This document shows, piece after piece, positions 4,577-59,202 of a stretch of 61,045 bases of DNA. The first letter of the stretch is position 1. Each line of letters starts with the position of its first letter. Position numbers and translations under genes: made by a program. This DNA is from Armatimonadota bacterium (lineage in GTDB: Bacteria; Armatimonadota; Chthonomonadetes; Chthonomonadales; CAJBBX01). A model generated the notes under the pieces. It made no database searches and had not been told where the DNA came from. It was given only the letters and a program-made list of their open reading frames with translations. The stretch is taken from the NCBI GenBank assembly GCA_026392115.1, contig JAPLCQ010000151.1, forward strand, positions 1 through 61,045, in the 5' to 3' direction.

Positions 4577-5959
4577 TCAGGCCATGTCCAGCGCCCAGAG
4601 GCTCCCCTGCCGGAGGCGGAGATCCAGCCGCACCGGCTGGCCAGCCGGGAGGCGGGGCATGCGGCGCCAGCGGATGGGCAGGGCCACGCCGTCGCCTCGC
4701 ACCGCGACGCACTCCGAATGGGTGTAGCCGGGGATCGGCTTGCCCGCCGCGTCCAGCAGGCACACGGTGAGTTCGCCCGCGACAGCAGCGTTGACGGTCA
4801 GGGACGTGCCGGACGGCAGCAGCAGCGGCGTTCGGAGCGTACCCGGGTCTTCGCTGGCCCGCCGGGCCACGTAGCGGTCTCGGGGCATTCGCGCCAGGCC
4901 GATCTGCCGCTCCGTGAAGCGCTCGACCTTGTGCCCGCGGGCGTAGCCCGCATAGTAAATGTACGTGCGGTCGCCTACGAGCAGTTGGCAGTCGCCCCAT
5001 GCCATGGCATGGTCCCAAGCGCCCACGCGCGGGTTGCGGTCCATGAAGGGCGTCCGGTCGCGGGTCCAGCGTTCGCCGTCGCGGCTCCATGCCAGCGTGG
5101 TATAGCCGAGCCCGTAGCCGCCCGGCGGCGCGTTCTCCACCTTCAGGTCGTCGCGCAACACCTTGACGAGGCCGATGAGGAGCCCGCCCCGCGCCAGCAC
5201 TCCGGACATGCAGTAGAACTGCGTCTCGCCGGGGTCGTCGGCCTCGGGGGTGATGATGCGCCACGGCTCGCGCCAATGGACCAGGTCATCACTGACGCTC
5301 TGCATGGGAATGCGCTGCTGCCCGGCCCAGGCGGGCCCGGTCGTGTAGCTGGAGACGAGGGCCAGGTATCGCTTCCGGATGGGATCCCAGTGGATGCTGT
5401 TGATATCGTGGTCGTGGCGGATCACCGGGCCGGCCGGCAGGCGCGTCCAGCTGAGGCTGTCAGGCGACGTGGCGATCTGTAGACCGCCGTCGTCCCAGTA
5501 GCCGTACTTGAAGCGCCGCGCCGGGTCGCGCTCGCGTGCGCCGTCGTCGAGGATACTGACGCCGAACTGGATGTGCCCCGGGTCCGGCAGCACGCGGTGT
5601 GGCCGCTCCCAATGGACGCCGTCGTCCGAGGCCATGGTGGCCAGATGCGACTGCGAAGCGCTCTCGGGTACGCCGTACCAGATGCGGAAGCGTCCGCCGG
5701 GCTCGCGCAGCACGGTGACGTAGGGCTGGAAGCACTTATCCTCCGGCCCGGTCACCACCGGCTCCGGCAACCGATCCGGCGGCGTCACGACGCGCTCAAG
5801 GCCCTGCGAGGTCTCGATCAGCGCATCGTCCAGCAGCAGTTGCGGGCCAGGCCCCAGCTCCATCGGAGCATGGCCCAGGCCGTCGGCCGAGCCCGACAGC
5901 CCCGCCGCAGCAGCGACGGCGGAAACGGCCAGTTCACGGCGGCTGAGTTCGTGGGTCAT
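4577..5959 (-). CDS. Secreted five-bladed-propeller glycoside hydrolase-like protein (GH32/GH43 fold)
   Basis: The 460-residue protein begins MTHELSRRELAVSA, a twin-arginine-like export signal, then the LLLDDALIE-GLERVVTPP opening common to secreted five-bladed propeller proteins annotated near GH32/GH43/GH117. Repeated blade motifs follow, such as ASDDGVHWERP, TSPDSLSWTRL and SDDLVHWREP, and a small C-terminal sandwich ends the protein. The ATG at 5959 is chosen over an in-frame GTG at 5971 because AAGGTGG sits eight bases upstream. It lies 39 bases after the next gene and is probably co-transcribed with it. Substrate unknown; hydrolytic activity is inferred from the fold only. Confidence 0.65.
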   Translation of the reverse strand: MTHELSRRELAVSAVAAAAGLSGSADGLGHAPMELGPGPQLLLDDALIETSQGLERVVTPPDRLPEPVVTGPEDKCFQPYVTVLREPGGRFRIWYGVPESASQSHLATMASDDGVHWERPHRVLPDPGHIQFGVSILDDGARERDPARRFKYGYWDDGGLQIATSPDSLSWTRLPAGPVIRHDHDINSIHWDPIRKRYLALVSSYTTGPAWAGQQRIPMQSVSDDLVHWREPWRIITPEADDPGETQFYCMSGVLARGGLLIGLVKVLRDDLKVENAPPGGYGLGYTTLAWSRDGERWTRDRTPFMDRNPRVGAWDHAMAWGDCQLLVGDRTYIYYAGYARGHKVERFTERQIGLARMPRDRYVARRASEDPGTLRTPLLLPSGTSLTVNAAVAGELTVCLLDAAGKPIPGYTHSECVAVRGDGVALPIRWRRMPRLPAGQPVRLDLRLRQGSLWALDMA

Positions 5960-5998
5960 CAGGTATTCCACCTTGTGGTGCGCTCCATCGTCAACCCC

Positions 5999-7717
5999 TC
6001 ACGGCTCGCCCAGCGCCACAATCGCCCACAACCCGAGGGTGGGCACGACCACGCGACCGTCGCGGACCGGCAGTATCTGCGGCTCGCATCCCGGCGCGTA
6101 GACCCGAGCCTCACGGGCGGACGGCACTCCCAGCGCCTTCAGGTCGAGCGTGAGGGTTACGTTGGCCTGGGGCGTCACATCGTCGGCCTTGCCATCGTAT
6201 GCGTAGCTCACCAGGTGCACCAGGGCGGACCCGCGCTTCACCCTCGGGAACGCTCGCACGGGGCCCGGCGCGACCGCCTTGGCTGCGGGATGCAGCGCGG
6301 CCATGGCGGCATCCACCGCGTCGTAGACCCCTCCGCGCCTCGCCCGACGCTCCAGCAGGCGGCCGTCCGCCGGGTCGAGCTTCTCGCGGTGCGGTGCGAC
6401 CAGCGGACGCCTCGATGATAGGTCGGCGGCCACCAACGGCTTGTCCACGATCTCGTCGCCCGCCAGCACGAGCCGGAACGCGACGTTGGCCGCGGTCAGC
6501 CGGGACGCCGCGTCGATCCATGGCTGCGGACCGTTGCGGAAGGAGCGGTGCGGCATGAGCAGGTCCATGTCGGCATAGGCCTCGTAGCCGTCGAACAGCC
6601 CGGCGTTCTCGCGCACGAACCGGTAGAGCGGCGCGAACCGCTCCGCCGGGCCCTGGTACCAGTGGGTGCCCTTCTCGGGCGTGTAGCACCACTGGCGGTG
6701 CGGCGCCATCAGGCGATGGCCCGCCGCGTAGCCCAGCGCGATCCAGTGGCGCACCAAACCGTGTAGCTGCTTCTCCTGGACGTAGGCCCAGTCTTGGCCG
6801 CTTGCCGTGGCGGCATAGGGGCGGCCCACCGCGTCGGCCAGACGGTAGGCAAGGATTGGCGCGTCACTGGGTTTGCGGCCGGCGGCATGGTGGTCGGTCT
6901 CGGCGCTGAAGAGATCGAGCACCTTGAAGTCGGCCAGGTGGAGCGGCCAGAGAAGCCCGGCGTTGGCGCCGACGGGCACCGGCTTACCGGCGACCGCCTC
7001 GGCTGTCGCGCGGAGCTCGGCCATGAGGGCGGCGGCCGCCTTGCACTGGTACGCGGTCCAGACCGGCCAGGCGGGATGCTGCGTGGGCTGTCTGCCGGGC
7101 GCCGCGGCCAGCCAGGCCCGCACATCGGCTCGGAAGTCGAACGCGGCGGCGTCGGCCTTCGCGAGGGCGCCGCGGCGATCCGGCGGCTGCGCGGCGAGGT
7201 AGCCGCGGAAGCCCTCCACGCACCGGTCGCAGAAGCAGACGCCCAGCCAGAGCCCGCCGGACGTGCCCATGTGGTCATCGACGTGGAGACCCTCGGCTCC
7301 GGCCTTGATGGTCTCGGTGACGCGCTCGCGGAGGTAGGTGCGGAACCGCGGCTGGTTGGTGCAGCACCACCAGTAGGGTATGCCCTTGTGCTGGTGGTCG
7401 GTTAGCCACGGCACCTTGACGGGCTTGCCGTCGATGTCCCGGCAGAGCGCCTCGGCGTAGGTCTCCGGGAAGCGGTCATGGTAGCGGTTGAACTCGGTGA
7501 CCATGCCGACGCTGCCGAGCCACCGCACGCCCTTGGCCTCGGCCAGCGCCCTGGCGTCGGGCTTGCCGCCCCATGCCAGCACGGTTGCGCCGTAGTCGGC
7601 GTAGGTCTGCCGGTCGGCCTGGTACATGAACACCACATCCGACCGCGACAGCGCGGGTCCGGCGGCTCGAGGCTCCATCGCCGTCGCCGCGAGAAGGCTC
7701 AACGCCAGCATGACCAT
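5999..7717 (-). CDS. Secreted TIM-barrel protein, putative glycosidase
   Basis: About 572 residues begin with the short signal peptide MVMLALSLLAATAMEPRAAG. The body reads like a glycosidase barrel: a strand with GVRWLGSVG, a GLHVDDHMG segment with paired acids, a Cys-rich CFCDRC loop, and late strands FSAETDHH and GYAAGHRLMAPH. A small beta-domain ends the protein (APGCEPQILPV...LGLWAIVAL). This resembles uncharacterised beta-galactosidase-like proteins of Planctomycetes and Armatimonadota, but I cannot assign a GH family. The ATG at 7717 is preferred to the in-frame ATG at 7747 because AAGGAG lies six bases upstream and the signal peptide then begins properly. Confidence 0.6.
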   Translation of the reverse strand: MVMLALSLLAATAMEPRAAGPALSRSDVVFMYQADRQTYADYGATVLAWGGKPDARALAEAKGVRWLGSVGMVTEFNRYHDRFPETYAEALCRDIDGKPVKVPWLTDHQHKGIPYWWCCTNQPRFRTYLRERVTETIKAGAEGLHVDDHMGTSGGLWLGVCFCDRCVEGFRGYLAAQPPDRRGALAKADAAAFDFRADVRAWLAAAPGRQPTQHPAWPVWTAYQCKAAAALMAELRATAEAVAGKPVPVGANAGLLWPLHLADFKVLDLFSAETDHHAAGRKPSDAPILAYRLADAVGRPYAATASGQDWAYVQEKQLHGLVRHWIALGYAAGHRLMAPHRQWCYTPEKGTHWYQGPAERFAPLYRFVRENAGLFDGYEAYADMDLLMPHRSFRNGPQPWIDAASRLTAANVAFRLVLAGDEIVDKPLVAADLSSRRPLVAPHREKLDPADGRLLERRARRGGVYDAVDAAMAALHPAAKAVAPGPVRAFPRVKRGSALVHLVSYAYDGKADDVTPQANVTLTLDLKALGVPSAREARVYAPGCEPQILPVRDGRVVVPTLGLWAIVALGEP

Positions 7718-12802: not shown

Positions 12803-15688
12803 TCAGGCAGTCCTGGCGCCGCGGAAACCGCGGTCGATGTTGCGGTAGTCCGGGTTCCGATTGCCGCTGCGGAGGGCACAACGGAACCGGAGTTCGCGAC
12901 CCAGACGGAACGAGCCACCGCGCAGTACTCGCGATCGGCCCGTCTGCCTCGTTTCGCCTTCCCCAAGAGCAGGATACCCAGACCACTCCCAGACGTTGCC
13001 CACCATGTCGCGGCACCTGGTTGGGCTCTCGCCGGAGGGGAACGCGCCCACCGGTGCCGTGCTGCGCAGGTCCATGTCGCCCTGGGAGTTTGCGCACTTC
13101 CGGTTGTCCCACTTATCGCCCCATGGGAACACGCGTCCGTCCGTGCCGCGGGCCGCCTTCTCCCACTGGCGCTCCGTGGGAAGCGAGAACGGCTGCTTCG
13201 TTGTCTCCGCAACCCACTCGCAGAAGACCTGCGCGTCTTGCCACGAGACGTTCACCATGGGATGGTTGTCGATCCAGCCCCAGGGGGGAGCAGGCGGCAT
13301 CTCCCGCCCTCTCGCCTTGCAGAAGAGCCGGTACTCGCCTACGGTCACGGGGTACTTCCGGATCCAGAACGGCTCCTCGTGGAGGGGTTCCTTCTTGTCT
13401 CCATAGAGGAACTTGCCGCCCGGAACCTTCACCATCTCCGTCAGGTCCCGACGGTCGCCCACGGCGGCCAGGGCCGCACCCGCGGCCAGACGCTCGGGCA
13501 CGGGCAGCCGCTCGTGCTCCAGGATATCCACCAGCCGAGACCTGACGCGACGCAGCGTCTCCTTGTCCTGTCCGGCCACTAGACGGCCCGCCCCGATCTC
13601 GGCCATGCACTCGCCCGCAGTGACCACCGCACGCCAATCCGCCTCGTCGGCAGGGACGGATTGGGGACACAGCTTGCCCACAAGGAGCATGGGACGATCG
13701 ACCTCGCCCTGGTACACAAGCCGGTTCACGGCAAGGAGCACCACTTCGCGCCAGTAGGCCCCCTTGCGAGCCAGACCGTCCAACTCGGTGGCAACCTCGC
13801 TCTTCGAGCAGACATGGCAGGCAGCCAGGTATTCCTGGAAGGTCCGGTGCGGGAAGGTGCAGCAATCGCCCTTCGCCGGTATGAGCAGCCCTGCCCGCAG
13901 CTTGACCAGACGCAGCACGCTGTTGGCCCAGGTGTAGTCCTGGCCGTCGGGCGTAAGGCACACAAACGCTTCGCGCAATGTACTCTCAGGAATGTCGGCC
14001 GCAGCACGGACGCCTGCCGCCTCGGCGCCCTCATGGGCCTCGAAGGCCACCAACGAGAGGACACGGCGGAAGTCGATATCCTTCTGCGCCTGCAGCGCAA
14101 GCAGGTCACGAAGCGATTCGCGGCCGTCCTGGCGGCGTTTGTCGACCTCGCGCCATGTCCAGAGCAACAACTCCACCACATGCTCATAGACCACGGAGCG
14201 TGCGTCGGGAATCTCCCCTTTGTCGGCGTGGTCGATCGCCATCATCGTGAGCAGCAGCGGCGTCCGGGCCATGTCGGCAAGATCGGGACGACGCGTGCCC
14301 ACACGAAGCTTGTCGGCGCGGTCCTTCCAGTCGGGCCAGCGCAGCTGCACCGCCGGTGTCCTGTACCACGCCGCCACGAACGCGTCGATCTGCTCCTCAT
14401 CGAAGAGGAGGAGGTCGGCCCGGGTCCAACGGCTTTCGTCCAGCAACCAGGGCCTCTGGGTTGGATCCAGTTTCGCGTGGTCCAGGTAGCTCCGGATGCG
14501 GCAGGTGACCAGCATGGGCATGCCGGTGTAGGCCTGCGGCAGATGGTTCAGCATTTCGCGAATGACGTGCATGGCCGGATCGGTATCGGCGACCTCGTCC
14601 CAGCCGTCCAGCAGAAGGAGCGCCTTCTGCGATGCGACGGCCTGGTTCACGGCATCGGCGGCGCCGGGGCACTCATTGGCCATCTGGGCCTTGAGGTAGT
14701 CGGACAGCAGGCCGAGCTTCGTGGCCTTGGAGCCCGACTCACCGATCCAGACGGCCAGGCGACGCAGGATCACACGCACCGGCAAGAGCTCGGCCCACTG
14801 CGGCGGCAGGCCGGGCAGGGCCTTGCCCAGGTCAATCTCCTCCCCGAGTTGCTTGCGGCCGACGCAGTTGGCGAGGTGGTTGAGGAACGTGGTCTTGCCG
14901 CCGCCCGGTTCACCGATGAGCAGCAGGTGCGGGTTGTTCGCAAACATCTCAAGCGCAGTCTTGGCTCGGGACTCGGGCTGCTTACCCGACCGAGCCGCGC
15001 GGAGGCCGATGTAGACATCGCTCAGGCAGGGCGGCGCGACCTGGCTGGTGGCGTCGGCGCCCGACTTCTCGGGGCCAGCGAGGGGCAGCGTGCCGGTCTC
15101 CGTAACGAGGAGGCGCAGGTAGGTCTCGCGGGCGCCGGCTGCGAGGGCCGCCGCGGCCTGCGCGGTGGCTTCGACCGCAGATGCGACGAGCGTCAGCTTC
15201 GAGAGGACTTCCTGCAGCAGGGCACTGTCATTGATGCGGGACCGACCGGTCACGGTGGCATACATGTTGTTGACGAGGTTGAGCAGGAAAGTGAACTGGT
15301 CCTTGTCGAGGTACTCGGCCGTCCAGCCCGCCGCCAGGTACTCCGTGTACAGGAGATCGGGGTCAAGGTGCGCCTGAGGTCCGCCCAGCAGGAACCTGGC
15401 CATCTGCTCCTGAACTCCGGGCCGCTCGGCGAGGTTGCCCCACATACGGGTCAGGTCCTCTTCCGTCACCGGCGCAGGCGACTGGGACTGCGCGCCGGCG
15501 GCGTAAAGGTCGGCGGCATAGGCGCTCGAAGCCATGGCCATGGCGCGCCCCAACGCGCCGTGCGCATGCTCCAAGGCCTGGGCAGTCTCCGGCGTAGAGC
15601 CTGCCTTGCGCTTCACCGCAGCATAGATGAGCTCACAGCCCCTGAATATGACGCTCGCGACGAAGCTCTGACTGATCGGATCAAGCAT
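12803..15688 (-). CDS. NACHT NTPase with C-terminal FGE/C-type-lectin-like domain (paralogue 1)
   Basis: The 961-residue protein has three parts. Residues 1 to about 240 are an uncharacterised, mainly helical region with DPDLLYTEYLAAGWT and a LSDVYIGLRA segment before the ATPase. The NACHT ATPase follows, with Walker A GEPGGGKTT (about 259) and Walker [10 protein letters not shown] (about 357), then a helical [12 protein letters not shown] region. From about 750 an FGE-sulfatase-type domain contains [17 protein letters not shown] and [13 protein letters not shown]. Its end, RGGSF...RGFRG, lacks the two FGE catalytic cysteines. This is a STAND-type sensor or effector, probably cytoplasmic, and not a sulfatase activator. 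The start at 15688 has GGAG upstream; longer starts add Arg-rich sequence. It is paralogous to 53781-56636. Confidence 0.8.
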   Translation of the reverse strand: MLDPISQSFVASVIFRGCELIYAAVKRKAGSTPETAQALEHAHGALGRAMAMASSAYAADLYAAGAQSQSPAPVTEEDLTRMWGNLAERPGVQEQMARFLLGGPQAHLDPDLLYTEYLAAGWTAEYLDKDQFTFLLNLVNNMYATVTGRSRINDSALLQEVLSKLTLVASAVEATAQAAAALAAGARETYLRLLVTETGTLPLAGPEKSGADATSQVAPPCLSDVYIGLRAARSGKQPESRAKTALEMFANNPHLLLIGEPGGGKTTFLNHLANCVGRKQLGEEIDLGKALPGLPPQWAELLPVRVILRRLAVWIGESGSKATKLGLLSDYLKAQMANECPGAADAVNQAVASQKALLLLDGWDEVADTDPAMHVIREMLNHLPQAYTGMPMLVTCRIRSYLDHAKLDPTQRPWLLDESRWTRADLLLFDEEQIDAFVAAWYRTPAVQLRWPDWKDRADKLRVGTRRPDLADMARTPLLLTMMAIDHADKGEIPDARSVVYEHVVELLLWTWREVDKRRQDGRESLRDLLALQAQKDIDFRRVLSLVAFEAHEGAEAAGVRAAADIPESTLREAFVCLTPDGQDYTWANSVLRLVKLRAGLLIPAKGDCCTFPHRTFQEYLAACHVCSKSEVATELDGLARKGAYWREVVLLAVNRLVYQGEVDRPMLLVGKLCPQSVPADEADWRAVVTAGECMAEIGAGRLVAGQDKETLRRVRSRLVDILEHERLPVPERLAAGAALAAVGDRRDLTEMVKVPGGKFLYGDKKEPLHEEPFWIRKYPVTVGEYRLFCKARGREMPPAPPWGWIDNHPMVNVSWQDAQVFCEWVAETTKQPFSLPTERQWEKAARGTDGRVFPWGDKWDNRKCANSQGDMDLRSTAPVGAFPSGESPTRCRDMVGNVWEWSGYPALGEGETRQTGRSRVLRGGSFRLGRELRFRCALRSGNRNPDYRNIDRGFRGARTA
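12806..12931 (-). other. Candidate DGR-type variable region of NACHT-FGE gene 1
   Basis: The last 42 codons begin RVLRGGS, then 27 codons, then GFR and the stop region. This matches the layout of C-type-lectin variable regions that DGRs rewrite. Of the 27 intervening codons 22 end in C or T, as expected if AAC or AAT template codons were mutated at adenines. No template repeat is visible here, so this is a candidate only. Confidence 0.35.
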
Positions 15689-15818
15689 GGCATGCGTCTC
15701 CGGTGCGGGATGTGCTTGCCGATAGGTTCGATGCGGCGGCGGCGCACTCCTCCTCCGTCGGCGGAGGATCGGGCGGCGCGCCACCCCGCCGTAGGCGATC
15801 AGGGGCCAGGCGACCTGC

Positions 15819-52692: not shown

Positions 52693-53711
52693 TCATCGTA
52701 ATGGCGGCTCACAGCACCCGTGAGCAGGTGGCCGACGTCGAGCAGCGGATTACGGACTGGGGTTACGGGGTCCATCCCATCTACGGCACGGAGCGGACGG
52801 TCATCGGCGCCGTGGGGGTGCCGGACACGGACAAGCAGCGGTACATCGAGCAGCTGGAGCGGCTCGAGTGCGTCGAGCGCGTCATCGCCATCGTCCGCCC
52901 CTACAAGTTCGTCAGCCGCGACTGGAAGCCCGAGAGCACCAGCATCACCGTGGGCCCGGCCACCATCGGCGGCCCGCGGATCTGCCTCATGGCTGGCCCA
53001 TGCACCGTTGAGGACTACCCGCTGACGCTGGCCACGGCGCAGGCGATCAAGGCCTGCGGCGCCACCGTGCTGCGCGGCGGGGCCTATAAGCCCTGCACGT
53101 CGCCCTACTCGTTCCAGGGCCTCGGCGAGGAGGGGCTGAAGATACTCCGCGCCGCCGCCGACGAGACCGGCCTGGCCGTCATCACCGAGATCATGGACCC
53201 GCGCAACGTGGAGATGGTCTGCGGCTACACCGACATGCTGCAGATCGGCACGCGCAACATGCAGAACTACGACCTGCTGCGCGAGGTGGGCAAGGCCAGC
53301 AAGCCGGTCATGCTCAAGCGCGGCATGTGGGCCAAGATCGAGGAGTGGCTGCAGGCGGCCGAGTACATCTACCTCGAGGGCAACCACGACATCATGCTCT
53401 GCGAGCGGGGCATCCGAACCTTCGAGACGCACACCCGCAACACGCTGGACCTGAGCGCCGTGGCGGCCGTGAAGCAGCTCTCGCACCTGCCCGTGGTGGT
53501 CGACCCGAGCCACGGCACGGGCAAGTCGAGCCTGGTGGCGGCCATGTCCCGCGCCGCCGTTGCCTGCGGAGCCGACGCCCTGATGATCGAGGTACACCAG
53601 CACCCCGACAAGGCCATCAAGGACGCGGCCCAAGCCCTATCCCACGAGCAGTTCGACACCCTCGTGCGGCAGTGCAGACCCGTGGCGGAGGCGGTGGGGA
53701 GGACGGTGTAG
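52689..53711 (+). CDS. aroF: Type I-beta 3-deoxy-7-phosphoheptulonate (DAHP) synthase with N-terminal regulatory domain
   Basis: The 340-residue enzyme makes the first shikimate pathway intermediate from PEP and erythrose 4-phosphate. Residues 1-70 form the ferredoxin-like tyrosine-sensing domain. The barrel begins with LMAGPCTVE (about 100) and contains LRGGAYKPCTSPYSFQGLG (about 127-145), VVVDPSHGTGK and EVHQHPDKA. The usual Arg of the KPRTSP motif, which contacts erythrose 4-phosphate, is Cys here (TGC). The start GTG at 52689 overlaps the hisC stop by four bases. Two genes therefore form a small plus-strand operon. Confidence 0.9.
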   Translation: MIIVMAAHSTREQVADVEQRITDWGYGVHPIYGTERTVIGAVGVPDTDKQRYIEQLERLECVERVIAIVRPYKFVSRDWKPESTSITVGPATIGGPRICLMAGPCTVEDYPLTLATAQAIKACGATVLRGGAYKPCTSPYSFQGLGEEGLKILRAAADETGLAVITEIMDPRNVEMVCGYTDMLQIGTRNMQNYDLLREVGKASKPVMLKRGMWAKIEEWLQAAEYIYLEGNHDIMLCERGIRTFETHTRNTLDLSAVAAVKQLSHLPVVVDPSHGTGKSSLVAAMSRAAVACGADALMIEVHQHPDKAIKDAAQALSHEQFDTLVRQCRPVAEAVGRTV

Positions 53712-53712
53712 C

Positions 53713-53738
53713 GCCGCCGCCGGTGGCACGGCGGCGGC
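53713..53738. terminator. Perfect 10-base GC hairpin between aroF and NACHT-FGE gene 2
   Basis: GCCGCCGCCG and CGGCGGCGGC form a 10-base perfect stem with a 6-base loop. It begins immediately after the aroF stop codon and lies 42 bases after the NACHT gene stop. There is no U-run, so it may be a bidirectional factor-dependent terminator or a structure linked to the NACHT gene end. Confidence 0.5.
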
Positions 53739-53780
53739 AACGTCAACGGCCAAAGGGCAAGACGGCAAGAGCGCAAAGGG

Positions 53781-56636
53781 CTACGAGGAGCCCTCGGGAG
53801 AGACGCACCGAAACCCTCGACTGTTGTACCTATTGTCATGGTTGACCCTGCCGCGATAGTGCGCGCGGAAGTTGACCGTACTGCCGACGTTCCACGAGCC
53901 GCCCCGCAAGACACGGTAGGGGCTCCCACGCTCGAAGGAGTCCTGGCACCACTCCCATACGTTGCCGGCCATGTCTGAGCAGCGACACAGGCTCTCGCCG
54001 GCCGTGAAAGCGCCTACCGGCGCGGTGCTGTTCAGATCGGCGGGCCGCACCGAACAGGCGCAATGGCCGTCGCGCCAGTCGTCACCCCAGGGGTATTCCC
54101 GACCGTCCATGCCACGCGCCGCCTTCTCCCACTGCCGCTCGGTGGGCAGCGCCAACCCGGCCCACTCGCAGAAGGCCTTCGCGTCGTGCCACCGCACGTT
54201 CACCACGGGGTGGTTGTCGATCCAGCCCCAGGGCGGTGGAGGCGGCATCTTAACGCCGGGGTTCGCCCCGACGTAGGCCCGGTACTCCCCGACCGTCACG
54301 GGGTACTTGCGGACTCTGAACGTCGGCAGATCGGCTTGCTCCCTGTTCGGGCCATAGAGGAAGGGCCCGCCGGGCACCTCGACCGTCTCCCGCAAGTCGC
54401 GTGGGTCGCCGATGGCGGCCAGTGTGTTTCCCGCGACGATGCGCTCCCCGGTCGGGAGACGCTCGGGCACATCCTCCAGGATTTGCACGAGGCGGCCCCG
54501 GACGCGGGCAAGCGTCTCCTTGTCGTGGACCGAGGCGACGCGGCGTGCTCCCACCTCGGCCAGGCACTCGCCCGCCATGGCCACCGCTCGCCACCCCTCT
54601 GCGGCCACGGGTTCCGCCACAGGGCAGAGGCCGCCCACCAGGTACATGGGCCGACCGATCTCCTTGTTCTGGTAAACGAGCTTATTCACGGCCAGTAGCA
54701 CCACCTCGCGCCAGGCGGCCCCCTTGCGAGACAGCCTATTCAGCTCCGCGGTCACATCGGGCATGGCACAGACGTGGCATGCCGCCAGGTACTCCTGGAA
54801 CGTTCGGTGCGGGAAGGTGAGGCAGCCGCCCGCGCCGGGAATGAGCAGGCCCGCGCGGAGCTTTACAAGGTGCATCACCTTATCGGCCCAGGTGTGGTCC
54901 CTGCCGTCCGGCGTCAACGTGACAAAGGCATCCCGCAACGTGTGTTCGGGGATATCGGCCGCGCCTGACGTCTTGCCGGAGGCCTCGGCGCCGGCGTGGG
55001 CGTAGTAGGCGACCTCGTGGAGCACGCGCCGCAGGTCGACGTTCTGCCTGTCGGCTTCCTCCAGGAGGCCGCGAAGGGACTCGGCGCCGTCCTCGCTGTC
55101 CTGCGCCGGCTTGCGCCACTTCCAGAGGAACAGCTCGGTGACGTCCTCGTAGACCAGCGACCGGGCATCGGGCAGTTCGCCCTGCTCGGCATGGTCGATG
55201 GCCATGATGGTGAGGAGGAGCGGGTACCGGGCCATGTCGCGCAGGTCGGCGCGACGCACGGCGTCCCGGAGCTTTGACGCCTTGTCATCTGCGTCGGGCC
55301 GATTCCGGAGGGTCTTCAGGGTCGAGTACCAAGCCTTGACGAACGCGTCGATCTGGCCGTCGTCAAAGAGCAGGAGGTCGGTTCGCTGCCAGAGCCGCTC
55401 CTTCAGCCGCCACGGGCCGACCTCGTTGGCCTTCTGCGACTCCAGTCGGTACTCCTCTGCGTAGCTCCGCACGCGGCAGGTAACCAACATGGGTAGCGCC
55501 GGGTAGGTCCCGGGCAGGCAGTTGAGCATCCGGCGTATGGTCGGCATGGCCGGATCGTCTGAGGCGACCTCGTCCCAGCCGTCCAGCAAGAGAATGGCCT
55601 TCTGTTCTCTGATCGCCTTCTGCACCAGCTCCACGGCGCCGGGGCACCTCTTGGGAATCTGGTGGGCAAGGTAGTCCATCAGGAGTCCGGCTTCCGTAGA
55701 CTTCGACTCGGACACCCCGATCCACGCAGCCAACTGCCGCAGCGCCACGCGAACGGGCAGGCGCGTGGTCCACTCCGCCGGCATGGCTGCCATGGCCTCG
55801 CCCAGGTCAAGCGCGGGTTTCTGGAGCTTGCGACCGATGGTGTTGGCCAGATGGTTGGCGAAGGTGGTCTTTCCGGCACCGGGCTCGCCGATGAGGAGCA
55901 TGTGGGGAGTTTGGGCGAACAGCTCCAGGGCCGTATGGGGCTCCCGATCCGCCCGTGAGGCGACGGCGCCTTCCGCCATAGCGTCGGCCGTTCGCCTCTC
56001 GGCAGCCTGCGTTGCCCGCAAGCCCACGTACACGTCCGTGAGCGTCACAGGCTCTGCCGAAGAGGTGGCATCGGACGCCTCCTTATCGGCCAGCGGCAGC
56101 GTGTCGGTCTCGTCGAGCAGTACGGTGAGATAGGTGCCGAGCGCGGTGGTGTAGGTGGGTGGGTCGGTGAGTTGCTTCAACCCTTCGCGAACCGACTGCA
56201 GTTGCTCGCGCACATCGGCTCCCGGCGCCTTCGGGCAGTGGATGCCGTTCAGGAACGCCAGCAGCATGGCAAGGTCGGCCTGGTTGAGGAACGCGTCGGT
56301 CCAGCCAGCCGCCTGGTAGCTTGCGTAGAGCGCGGCGGGGTCCATCGGCTTCCCGTCCAGGAGCAGGGCGCCCAGCTGCACGGCAACCTCGGGGCGGTCC
56401 AACAGACTGTGCAGCATGTGTGCCAGTGCATTCCTGTCGCGCGTCGGCGTCGAGCCCTTCACGGCGATGAATGCCGCGGCCGCGCCCTCGACCGATGCGG
56501 CGAAGGACTTCTCGGCCTCCGCCAGCGCGCGGACAGCCACGTCGCTGCCCGACCGCGCCGTCGCGGCCTCACGGACGGTCTTCCAGAACAGACCGAAGCC
56601 CGTCTCCATCGCCTTCTCGCCGGGTTCGAACGCCAT
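53781..56636 (-). CDS. NACHT NTPase with C-terminal FGE/C-type-lectin-like domain (paralogue 2)
   Basis: The 951-residue paralogue of 12803-15688 has the same order: an N-terminal module with [15 protein letters not shown] (about 100-115) and [11 protein letters not shown] (about 200), a NACHT ATPase with Walker [10 protein letters not shown] (about 249) and Walker [10 protein letters not shown] (about 348), helical [12 protein letters not shown], and an FGE domain (about 750-951) with [19 protein letters not shown] and [13 protein letters not shown]. The end RGGSWNVGS...SRGFRC lacks FGE catalytic cysteines. The start at 56636 has GGAGG six bases upstream; the longer upstream frame is a shadow. 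Role is probably sensing, perhaps defence, but is not proven. Confidence 0.8.
53784..53915 (-). other. Candidate DGR-type variable region of NACHT-FGE gene 2
   Basis: The last 44 codons begin RVLRGGSW and after 26 codons reach RGFRC. Twenty of these 26 end in C or T, including AAC, GTC, GGC, CAC, TAT, CGC, GAC and TAC, which are reachable from AAC or AAT by changing only adenines. After the stop the minus strand reads CCCTTTGCGCTCTTGCC. The sequence is consistent with a DGR variable region, but a template is not in view. Confidence 0.35.
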
Positions 56637-56674
56637 TCGTTGCCTCCTCCCATCGCCGCCGCCGGGCCCCTGCC

Positions 56675-59202
56675 CTACTCTCCCCGGATCGCCTCTATCT
56701 CGAGTCGGCCCGGCGAGGCGCCGTGTTCGGGGTCGAGGCGCAGGTAGGTGATGCGCCTGCCTCGCCAGAGCGGATGATCGCCCACCGGGATGCGGATGTC
56801 GCGCATGGGGGCGCCCGGCTCCACCGGGAAGCGAACGCACGTCTCCTCGGCCCCGGCCTGCACGCCTTCGGCGCGGAAGTAGAGCTGGCCGAACTCGCCG
56901 CAGGTGGCCCGCATCCGAATGACCAGCGTCTTCACGGTGTCGGGCGGCAGGTCGAGCGGCGGGGCGGCCATGTAGGGGTCGGGACCGGTGATGTCGACCA
57001 CCATCCTGCCGCCCTGAAGGCGCATGGGTCCCAGGTCCGAGAGGCCCGTCCAGCCGTGGAGCGAGGTGTCGAACCGGAAGTCCACGCTCGTCCGCTTCAC
57101 CGACGAGGGCGGTCGCCACGGGTGGGCCTTGCCCTCCACCACGGCGTCGCCGGTGCGCGGGTCCATCTCCACGCGCTTGCGGCCGGCCACCCAGACCGTG
57201 GGCTTGCTGCAACCCATGACCGTGGCGCCGCGCGGGTTCACGTACTTCAGCGATGCGGCGCGGTCCCGCACGAAGTCGACGCGCATCGTCGAGCCCGGCG
57301 GGCAGGCTGAATAGGCCGTGAAGCTGCCGTCGGCCTTCCACGCCGCCCAGGCCGACTTGCCCAGCGTCACCGCGCCGTCGGGCGTGGCGGCCGTGCAGGC
57401 TTCGGCTCCGCGGTTCACCAGCACGGTGAGCCCGTTGGCGTAGCGGACTCGGATGCGCTCGAAGGCCCTGGGCTGCGGGTTCCAGAAGACGGGTAGCGGG
57501 TCCACGCCCGCACCGCGCTCCAGTAGCGGACTTCGCGCACGGGCTGCATGGCGGTGAGGCGCTGCAGGCAGCCCATCACCAGGCACTCGGTGAGCACGAA
57601 GTCCCACGGCATACCGGGGTAGTAGAAGAGGTAGGCGCCGTTGCCGTAGAGCGCCTCGCAGGACCGGTAGTCGTCGTACTGCGCCGGGTCGGCGAGGTAG
57701 GTCGCCTTGCCTGCGGACCAGTTCGCGAAGGGCGGCATCTCGAAGAAGCGGTACATCAACCCCATGCCGTGGAAGGTGGAGAGGCCGTGGAGGCGGCGCA
57801 GCTTGAACTCCGGCGTCATGAGCCGATGGTGGCCGTCGTAGACGCCGAAGTCGCCCGTATCCACGTACCTGCCCAGAAGCTGCTCGTCGATGTTCGTCTC
57901 GCTGCCCAACGGCCCCTGGTGCGTCGCCTTGATGAGCCGGCACAGCTCCCGCTGCCGAGCCAGCACACGGCCCATGGAGGCGAACGCGGGCTGGGCCGGG
58001 TCGTAGTCGGCATAGCCCCACGGTGCGGCGGCGCTGGTGATCTGGTCGGTGAACGATGCGTTCGACCGGAAGAGGCCCTGGATCTCGGCCTCCTGCCGGC
58101 GGGCCAGGGTGAGCCAGTCGCCGGGGCGGGTGTACCAGGCGGGCTTGCCGTCAGCTCCGACGGCCTGCCGCGCCTTGCCCTCGCGGACGCTGGGCGAACC
58201 GGGCCGCAGGTAGACATAGTTGGTCCGTAGCCCGAACCGACCCATTCCCCGCGCCAGCTGGCTGAGCCGCGCGAACTCGGCCACGCTGCCGATGCCGGGA
58301 TTGGGCGGGTAGTCGGGCATACGGATGCTGTCGGGCAGCAGACTGTCGAACCCGCCCGCCTGCCAGTTCTCGAAGAGGGTGAGAAACCGCGTGGCGCCGC
58401 CGGTGAGCAGGGCCAGGCGGCGGAGGAGGTACTCGGTGTCGGTGGCGGTCCCGTCCCAGACATCCAGGTAGAGCATCGTGGCCAGGTCCCGGCCGTACTC
58501 GCTGGGCTCGGTCTCCGGCGGCGGAGCGGCCTGCCAGAGGCTGCCCGATGCGCGAACCTCCAGCGTCTCGTCCAGCGGCTGCCTCGAGCCGTCGGCGCGG
58601 GTCGAGTAGACCACGTTCATCCCCGCGTCGAAGACGCCCGATCCGGTGAACCGCTGGTCCGGCGCGTCCCACGCGGAGCCGTTGGAGGCCGCCATGCGCC
58701 AGCCGGCGGTCAGGTAGAGGCGCTGATCCTTGAGCCTCGCCACGCGGGGCCAGAAGGGCTGGCCGTAGGGCTCGGCATTGCGGGTGTAGCCGATGCGGAA
58801 CCATGGCCCCGCCGCCTCCACGCTCCCGGCGCTGACGCGCGCAACGGGCGCGCTAGCCTCGCGGACGCGCAGCCGCAGGGCGCCGCCCGACGACGAGACC
58901 TCGACGGTCCACTGGGCCGAGGCCCGGTCCCACGTGGCCCGGTAGCGGTACCGCATCCCGCCCGCGGCACGCGCCGACTGGAGGAGCGCCACGCGCCCCT
59001 CGGAGGCCCGCGCCTCCTTGCCGCCCACCAGGAAGACCGGGTCGGTCACGCGCAGGATCGAGGCGCGGCCCGCGCCCACGGACACCCGCACCATCCGGTC
59101 GGCGGGGACGTAGACGCAGGCGGGCGCCACCGGCTCGGGGAGGCGGGGAGGTGAGGAGGCAACGAGGTGAGCGGCGAGCGCCACCGGCCAGATGATCGTC
59201 AA
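56675..59202 (-). pseudogene. Secreted glycosidase-like protein, frameshifted
   Basis: One gene is split between two frames. Translation from TTG at 59202 gives a signal peptide (ending near HLVASSPP), a beta-rich region and a TIM-barrel-like part with DVWDGTATDTEYLLRR and YGNGAYLFYYPGMPWD. At RYW, about 57520, this frame fails, while the -1 neighbour continues [18 protein letters not shown] and a C-terminal sandwich to 56675. The DNA reads TACTGGAGC where TACTGGGAGC would restore the frame, so a single G is missing. TTG overlaps the next gene's stop as TTGA, with GGAGG upstream. It may be a sequencing error or a recent pseudogene. Family not named. Confidence 0.7.

Follow-up and report, generated by a model that had tools for sequence, protein, structure and literature searches.

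The variable C-terminal tail of a NACHT-FGE gene in an Armatimonadota genome as a probable remote target of a DGR

The window analyzed here (61,045 nucleotides, contig C26 of an Armatimonadota genome of 5.72 Mb in 181 contigs, G000) carries a gene, gene 2, whose 3' end is very likely the variable region (VR) of a target of a diversity-generating retroelement (DGR). On a different contig, C13, we found the template repeat (TR), an adjoining reverse transcriptase (RT) and an Avd homolog. The differences between template and target are concentrated at template adenines in gene 2, in other genes of the same genome and in two congeneric genomes, both rated 100% complete (G001 and G002), and the domain that holds the tail has a recognizable fold. 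Since the RT and the surviving template lie on another contig than gene 2, we infer that gene 2 is a remote target, rewritten in trans.

Gene 2 (53784..56636, minus strand; TAG stop codon at 53781-53783, minus strand), as defined by its open reading frame and Pfam matches, encodes a protein of 951 amino acids. It combines a central STAND NTPase with a C-terminal FGE domain, a layout found in STAND/NACHT antiviral sensors. The NTPase core comprises about residues 232-400 (55437..55943, minus strand, approximate bounds), with stretches matching PF05729, PF13191, PF13401 and nSTAND3; the NACHT match has an E-value of 5.6e-7 (30.0 bits against a cut-off of 26.7), and AAA families match around the P-loop. 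The FGE-sulfatase domain (PF03781, a C-type lectin of the FGE subtype; 53802..54392, minus strand) covers residues 749-945 at 1.3e-38. Pfam names no N-terminal domain in the protein, and the PADLOC matches are weak and fall in the P-loop region. By analogy, the FGE-type C-lectin would be the putative sensor face, and rewriting of its tail would probably let a defence-type sensor protein alter what is recognised.

The AlphaFold2 model of the FGE domain, built from a 59-sequence alignment, has a pLDDT of 93.9; an earlier model from a 7-sequence alignment (pLDDT 53.6) was set aside. Structural comparison with VIA-align places the model close to human FGE (Z 26.9, 1.9 A over 202 residues) and to 2y3c, the DGR variable protein of Treponema (Z 25.2, 2.2 A over 194), with a further match to Mtd, 1yu0 (Z 15.6, 3.1 A over 156). 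The predicted structure thus has a C-type lectin (CLec) fold close to those of known DGR variable proteins, and in the model the VR is the C-terminal part of the CLec domain, as in known DGR targets.

A GC-rich inverted repeat with a 10-bp stem (53713..53738, no strand assigned) is located between gene 2 and a convergent DAHP-synthase-like gene. The same stem is found at the G001 ortholog of gene 2 and is absent 3' of the other VRs examined. Since the stem is confined to gene 2 and its ortholog, we set it aside as a DGR element; a terminator serving both genes is more likely. Some VRs, but not all, have a short stem at their end, and Rfam returned 0 matches within 53000-57500.

An RVT_1 search of the source genome gave four matches, one of which, on the 6,180-base contig C13, has the DGR motif. 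This RT (C13:4528-5625, stop at 5623-5625) is an open frame matching phrog_1423 reverse transcriptase at 5.3e-133. It carries LPLGNQTSQ and YVDD, corresponding to the patterns (I/V/L)GxxxSQ in motif 4 and YxDD that we used to recognize DGR-type RTs, and GN.TSQ is kept in the five relatives aligned to it. The SQ motif is given as a hallmark of DGR RTs in a passage of PMC3521204. The genes of C13 are arranged in the order vWA gene, PP2C gene, kinase-like/FGE gene with a VR, Avd homolog, RT and TR. The N-terminal part of the FGE gene appears kinase-like on reading its sequence, with no family match. The VR of this gene, the target in cis, contains an in-frame TAA and a 2-base insertion. The Avd homolog is broken by one in-frame TAG, and its family matches (phrog_3206, 'Avd protein of DGR', 2.3e-27; PF22296, 4.2e-18) were obtained reading through it.

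The AAC-rich TR (C13:5634-5760) begins no more than 10 bases past the RT stop and has the sequence WNNNNADNFRAHYRNRNDPDNRNNNQGFR. We take this repeat as the template because it stands directly after the RT, lies outside a full FGE gene and differs from the VRs at its 3' end, which reads GAAGAC where most VRs have GAGGGC. A 3' IMH in the VR that differs from the IMH* of the template is a known feature of DGRs. Whole-genome searches with the VR and with the TR found no further match on the window's own contig.

Several observations concern the surroundings of such cassettes. Both ends of C13 (L005:229-302 and 5900-6060) carry dispersed repeats, with 46 matches in the source genome; these may be why the assembly broke there, and the cassette could have been moved by them. 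A second DGR-type RT (GIPIGNLTSQ), truncated and with an in-frame TAG, is present on contig C50 of the same genome (L060:4340-5056, minus strand), and alignment found no template near it. Contig C26 of G002 (L105:5558-5862) has a 3' end like that of the C13 target followed directly by sequence like C13:5912-6043, without Avd, RT and TR. Since the second stretch is a dispersed repeat, an empty DGR site is no more than a possibility here.

The gene 2 VR (53787..53916, minus strand) aligns base by base with the C13 template at 82% identity over 130/131 bases of the TR query. The mutated adenine sites fall in a core of 26 codons, TGG to CGA (53817..53894, minus strand). The core is followed by a 3' end (53787..53816, minus strand) that is constant in the alignment of 12 VRs and the TR and that we take, from general DGR anatomy, to be IMH-like. 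The core comprises 78 bases, 31 of them A in the template. Gene 2 is changed at 13/31 adenines and at 5/47 other bases (p 2.2e-3), which places 13 of 18 core mismatches (72%) at adenines.

The original prediction had attributed the tail to adenine mutagenesis of AAC runs, for which a template with AAC codons at matching places should exist. Such a template was found, adjoining an RT with the DGR 'SQ' motif, but on contig C13 and not near gene 2. The codon counts that drew attention to the tail are exact: from GGS to GFR there are 26 codons, 20 ending in C or T, with four AAC. The proposal that the preference for C/T endings is itself a signal of mutagenesis fails. From the encoded residues and the codon preferences of gene 2 itself, 18.2 such codons would be expected, and at least 20 occur in 17 of the 926 26-codon windows of gene 2, 9 elsewhere in the gene and 8 overlapping the tail. 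FGE tails that lack a template match reach 22/27 (gene 1) and 22/26 (contig C116), with 14/25 and 16/25 in two further ones. We therefore rejected the bias as non-diagnostic; by itself it is a poor detector of VRs. The claim that several codons differ from AAC only at adenines is correct for GTC (two of three), GGC and TAC, which stand opposite AAC or AAT in the template, but not for CAC, both CGC and GAC, which are identical in the template and so not AAC-derived. Similarly, one of the four remaining AACs is opposite a template GAC. Overall, 7/11 template AAC/AAT codons are changed in gene 2 and 4/11 are kept.

Among the 21 FGE matches of the source genome, a strong template match is seen only in the TR itself, the C13 target (VR1), the genes of contig C114 and gene 2. 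Contig C114 carries four VRs, so that five VRs in this genome are remote from C13. Relative to the TR, C13 VR1 is changed at 13/31 adenines and 1/47 other bases. The values for the C114 VRs are 16/31 and 8/47 (C114a), 21/34 and 4/79 over 113 bases (C114b), 14/31 and 1/47 (C114c), and 18/31 and 3/47 (C114d). Three VRs of G001 are changed at 15/31, 16/31 and 15/31 adenines and at 0/47 other bases each, so that all 46 core mismatches are at adenines, one 3-base insertion being set aside. Two VRs of G002 have 14/31 and 3/47, and 16/31 and 8/47. Pooled over 11 VRs of the three genomes, changes affect 169/341 adenines and 31/517 other bases, with 169/200 mismatches (84.5%) at adenines; this contrast is descriptive, as the VRs are not all independent. 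The pool leaves out one VR of G001, on contig C52, with which the totals are 169/372 and 32/564. All 31 adenine columns vary across the VRs. The substitutions at template adenines are to G in 83 cases, to T in 74 and to C in 12; G as the most and C as the least frequent is also reported in a passage of PMC3521204.

The FGE gene on G001 contig C52 (L102:5071-5961, minus strand) has a VR with changes at 0/31 adenines and 1/47 other bases, and is apparently unmutated. The four FGE genes with VRs on C114 (L039:427-7594) have a common N-terminal region and stand around a Pkinase gene (Pfam), together with genes read as vWA-like (no Pfam match) and, by sequence reading, PP2C-like. One of the four is without part of the FGE domain 5' of the VR. 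No RT was found on C114.

These patterns bear on two explanations that need no retroelement. Ordinary diversifying selection on a ligand-binding surface, combined with C/T-ending codon usage, would suit the frequency of such codons in the template-less FGE tails. It predicts, however, no template repeat adjoining a DGR RT and does not predict the absence of changes at other bases in the three G001 VRs; the template alignment contradicts it, and we regard it as highly improbable. Shuffling of tails by gene conversion or recombination between FGE-domain paralogs is also unlikely. It finds support in non-adenine variants common to tails of different genes (template columns 5667, 5669, 5696 and 5703) and in the better conservation of the FGE domain than of the NACHT middle between G000 and G001. 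Shuffling would not favour adenines, though, as the pooled counts do, and 26/31 adenine columns hold three or four bases; the adenine bias contradicts gene conversion as the sole cause. Diversification by a DGR thus remains our preferred reading.

The G001 ortholog of gene 2 has 68-70% identical residues (68% in a global alignment). If adenine mutagenesis had acted, variants of the gene should change at A-derived bases. This was observed: the ortholog VR differs from the C13 template at 15/31 adenines and 0/47 other bases (p 7e-8), and 16/21 base differences between the two orthologous tails are at template-adenine sites (p 1.5e-4). The encoded residues differ at 14/26 positions in the core and at 0/11 after it; in the FGE flank before the core, 16/120 codons have amino-acid changes. 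Between the gene 2 orthologs, changes at codon positions 1 and 2 are in excess in the core relative to the flank, without reaching significance (p 0.26). The control, gene 1 (12803-15784), a NACHT-FGE paralog, has no template match, and its 27-residue tail shows three differences from its G001 counterpart. Over the whole of gene 2 (53784-56636), the FGE domain and the N-terminus are ~80-98% identical in DNA to G001 contig C93, and the NACHT middle is often 50-70% identical, as if this part had been exchanged.

Of the five non-adenine changes in the gene 2 core, four occupy columns that are altered in other VRs as well, namely 5667, 5669, 5696 and 5703 (probability of four or more by chance, 0.04); only 5707 is private to gene 2. 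At 5667, 5669 and 5696 gene 2 has the same bases as a VR on G002 contig C167, which belongs to a different gene, and C114d, too, departs from the template at two of these columns. This suggests a second, unseen template, in the simplest reading with C at 5696 and A at the other three shared columns, which would explain most of the non-adenine differences seen in gene 2. The shared bases could alternatively stem from gene conversion between tails. According to a passage of PMC8144416, nearly all DGRs have more than 75% of mismatches at template adenines. The lower value for gene 2 (72%) points the same way: the latest rewriting of gene 2 probably used another template than that of C13, and the G001 ortholog fits the C13 type. 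A DNA search of 31 genomes with the TR, and alignment on C50 and relatives, did not find the second template in G000, G001 or G002.

In the proposed mechanism, an RNA containing the AAC-rich TR would be copied by the DGR RT, which misreads template adenines. The cDNA would then take the place of the end of the target gene in a retrohoming step directed by the constant 3' end, and this replacement in trans would alter the ligand-binding face of the NACHT sensor. Even with C13 placed directly next to the right end of C26, a distance of 7 kb or more would separate the RT from the gene 2 VR. The TAG in the Avd gene and the TAA and 2-base insertion in the cis target suggest that the C13 copy may be inactive; with the template mismatch, they speak for decay or for an active copy that was not assembled.

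Gene 2 could accordingly be a fossil target, diversified by a DGR in the past, with the machinery now broken or lost and its VR changing by ordinary mutation. Such a history, which concerns present activity only and not the DGR origin of the tail, is plausible at somewhat below even chances. The stops and the frameshift on C13 agree with it, as do the truncated, TAG-containing RT on C50, the five non-adenine differences from the sole template and the lack of any DGR RT in G001 or G002, though both have VRs. The C13 RT frame is open with its motifs kept, however, and errors of assembly could account for the stops. A further DGR, missing from the assembly, is suggested by the unmatched template, and the G000 and G001 tails differ at 14/26 core residues although the constant 3' end is without amino-acid difference. 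A more general reading, which we offer tentatively and consider rather unlikely, is that the sensor genes of this genus are shared docking sites outliving their writers. Orthologs would then be rewritten from different templates, with the conserved 3' end as a common address for successive DGR cassettes acting in trans. It draws on the fit of the gene 2 orthologs to different templates and on the several VRs that the congeners keep without a DGR RT.

The RTs closest to the C13 RT outside the genus come from the same phylum, Armatimonadota. Of nine fetched loci, six were examined (all but L064, L065 and L069), looking for a TR in the 260 bases that follow the RT on its 3' side. Five of them have such a repeat directly after the RT, together with an adenine-biased VR (p 1.6e-8, 9.1e-11, 4.5e-11, 1.1e-11 and 1.2e-8); the sixth, L067, has no adenine-biased VR on the stretch examined.

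Gene 2 shares its CLec fold with Treponema denticola TvpA and Bordetella phage Mtd, in which the VR is likewise at the C-terminus. TvpA and Mtd are surface or phage-tail proteins encoded near their DGR, whereas gene 2 is a NACHT fusion far from one. For orthologous sensor genes in two species, constant ends that match and tails rewritten at adenines provide a natural comparison, by which trans targeting, resting on few cases, becomes testable.

STAND/NACHT-FGE targets of DGRs have already been described as a class, and gene 2 belongs to this known machinery. For DGR clade 5, passages of Dore et al. 2024 (PMC10907252) report NACHT/STAND-CLec targets and propose trans activity. As in those targets, the VR sits in an FGE-type CLec at the C-terminus, fused to a STAND NTPase. 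Also shared are remote targets and multiple DGR loci within one genome, and vWA-domain genes in some loci. The systems differ in phylum, the main text of that paper being without the string 'armatimon', in the cis target, which on C13 is an FGE gene in a vWA/PP2C cluster, and in the gene 2 VR mismatching the surviving template at some non-adenine sites. In the DGR-linked VMAP ternary systems (Kaur et al. 2020, PMC7159879, in the passages concerned), the FGS (FGE) domain is similarly diversified by a DGR, whose TR may lie nearby or at another place in the genome. In those systems the vWA protein itself usually carries the FGE domain and has a MoxR ATPase as neighbour; in the present genome vWA and PP2C genes stand next to FGE genes, and no MoxR is among the C13 and C114 ORFs read. 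To these systems our analysis contributes a DGR that has several remote targets and comes from Armatimonadota, a lineage not named in the literature searched. Less common among its features are the large number of remote targets compared with a single surviving DGR that is partly broken, and orthologs that seem to have been rewritten from different templates.
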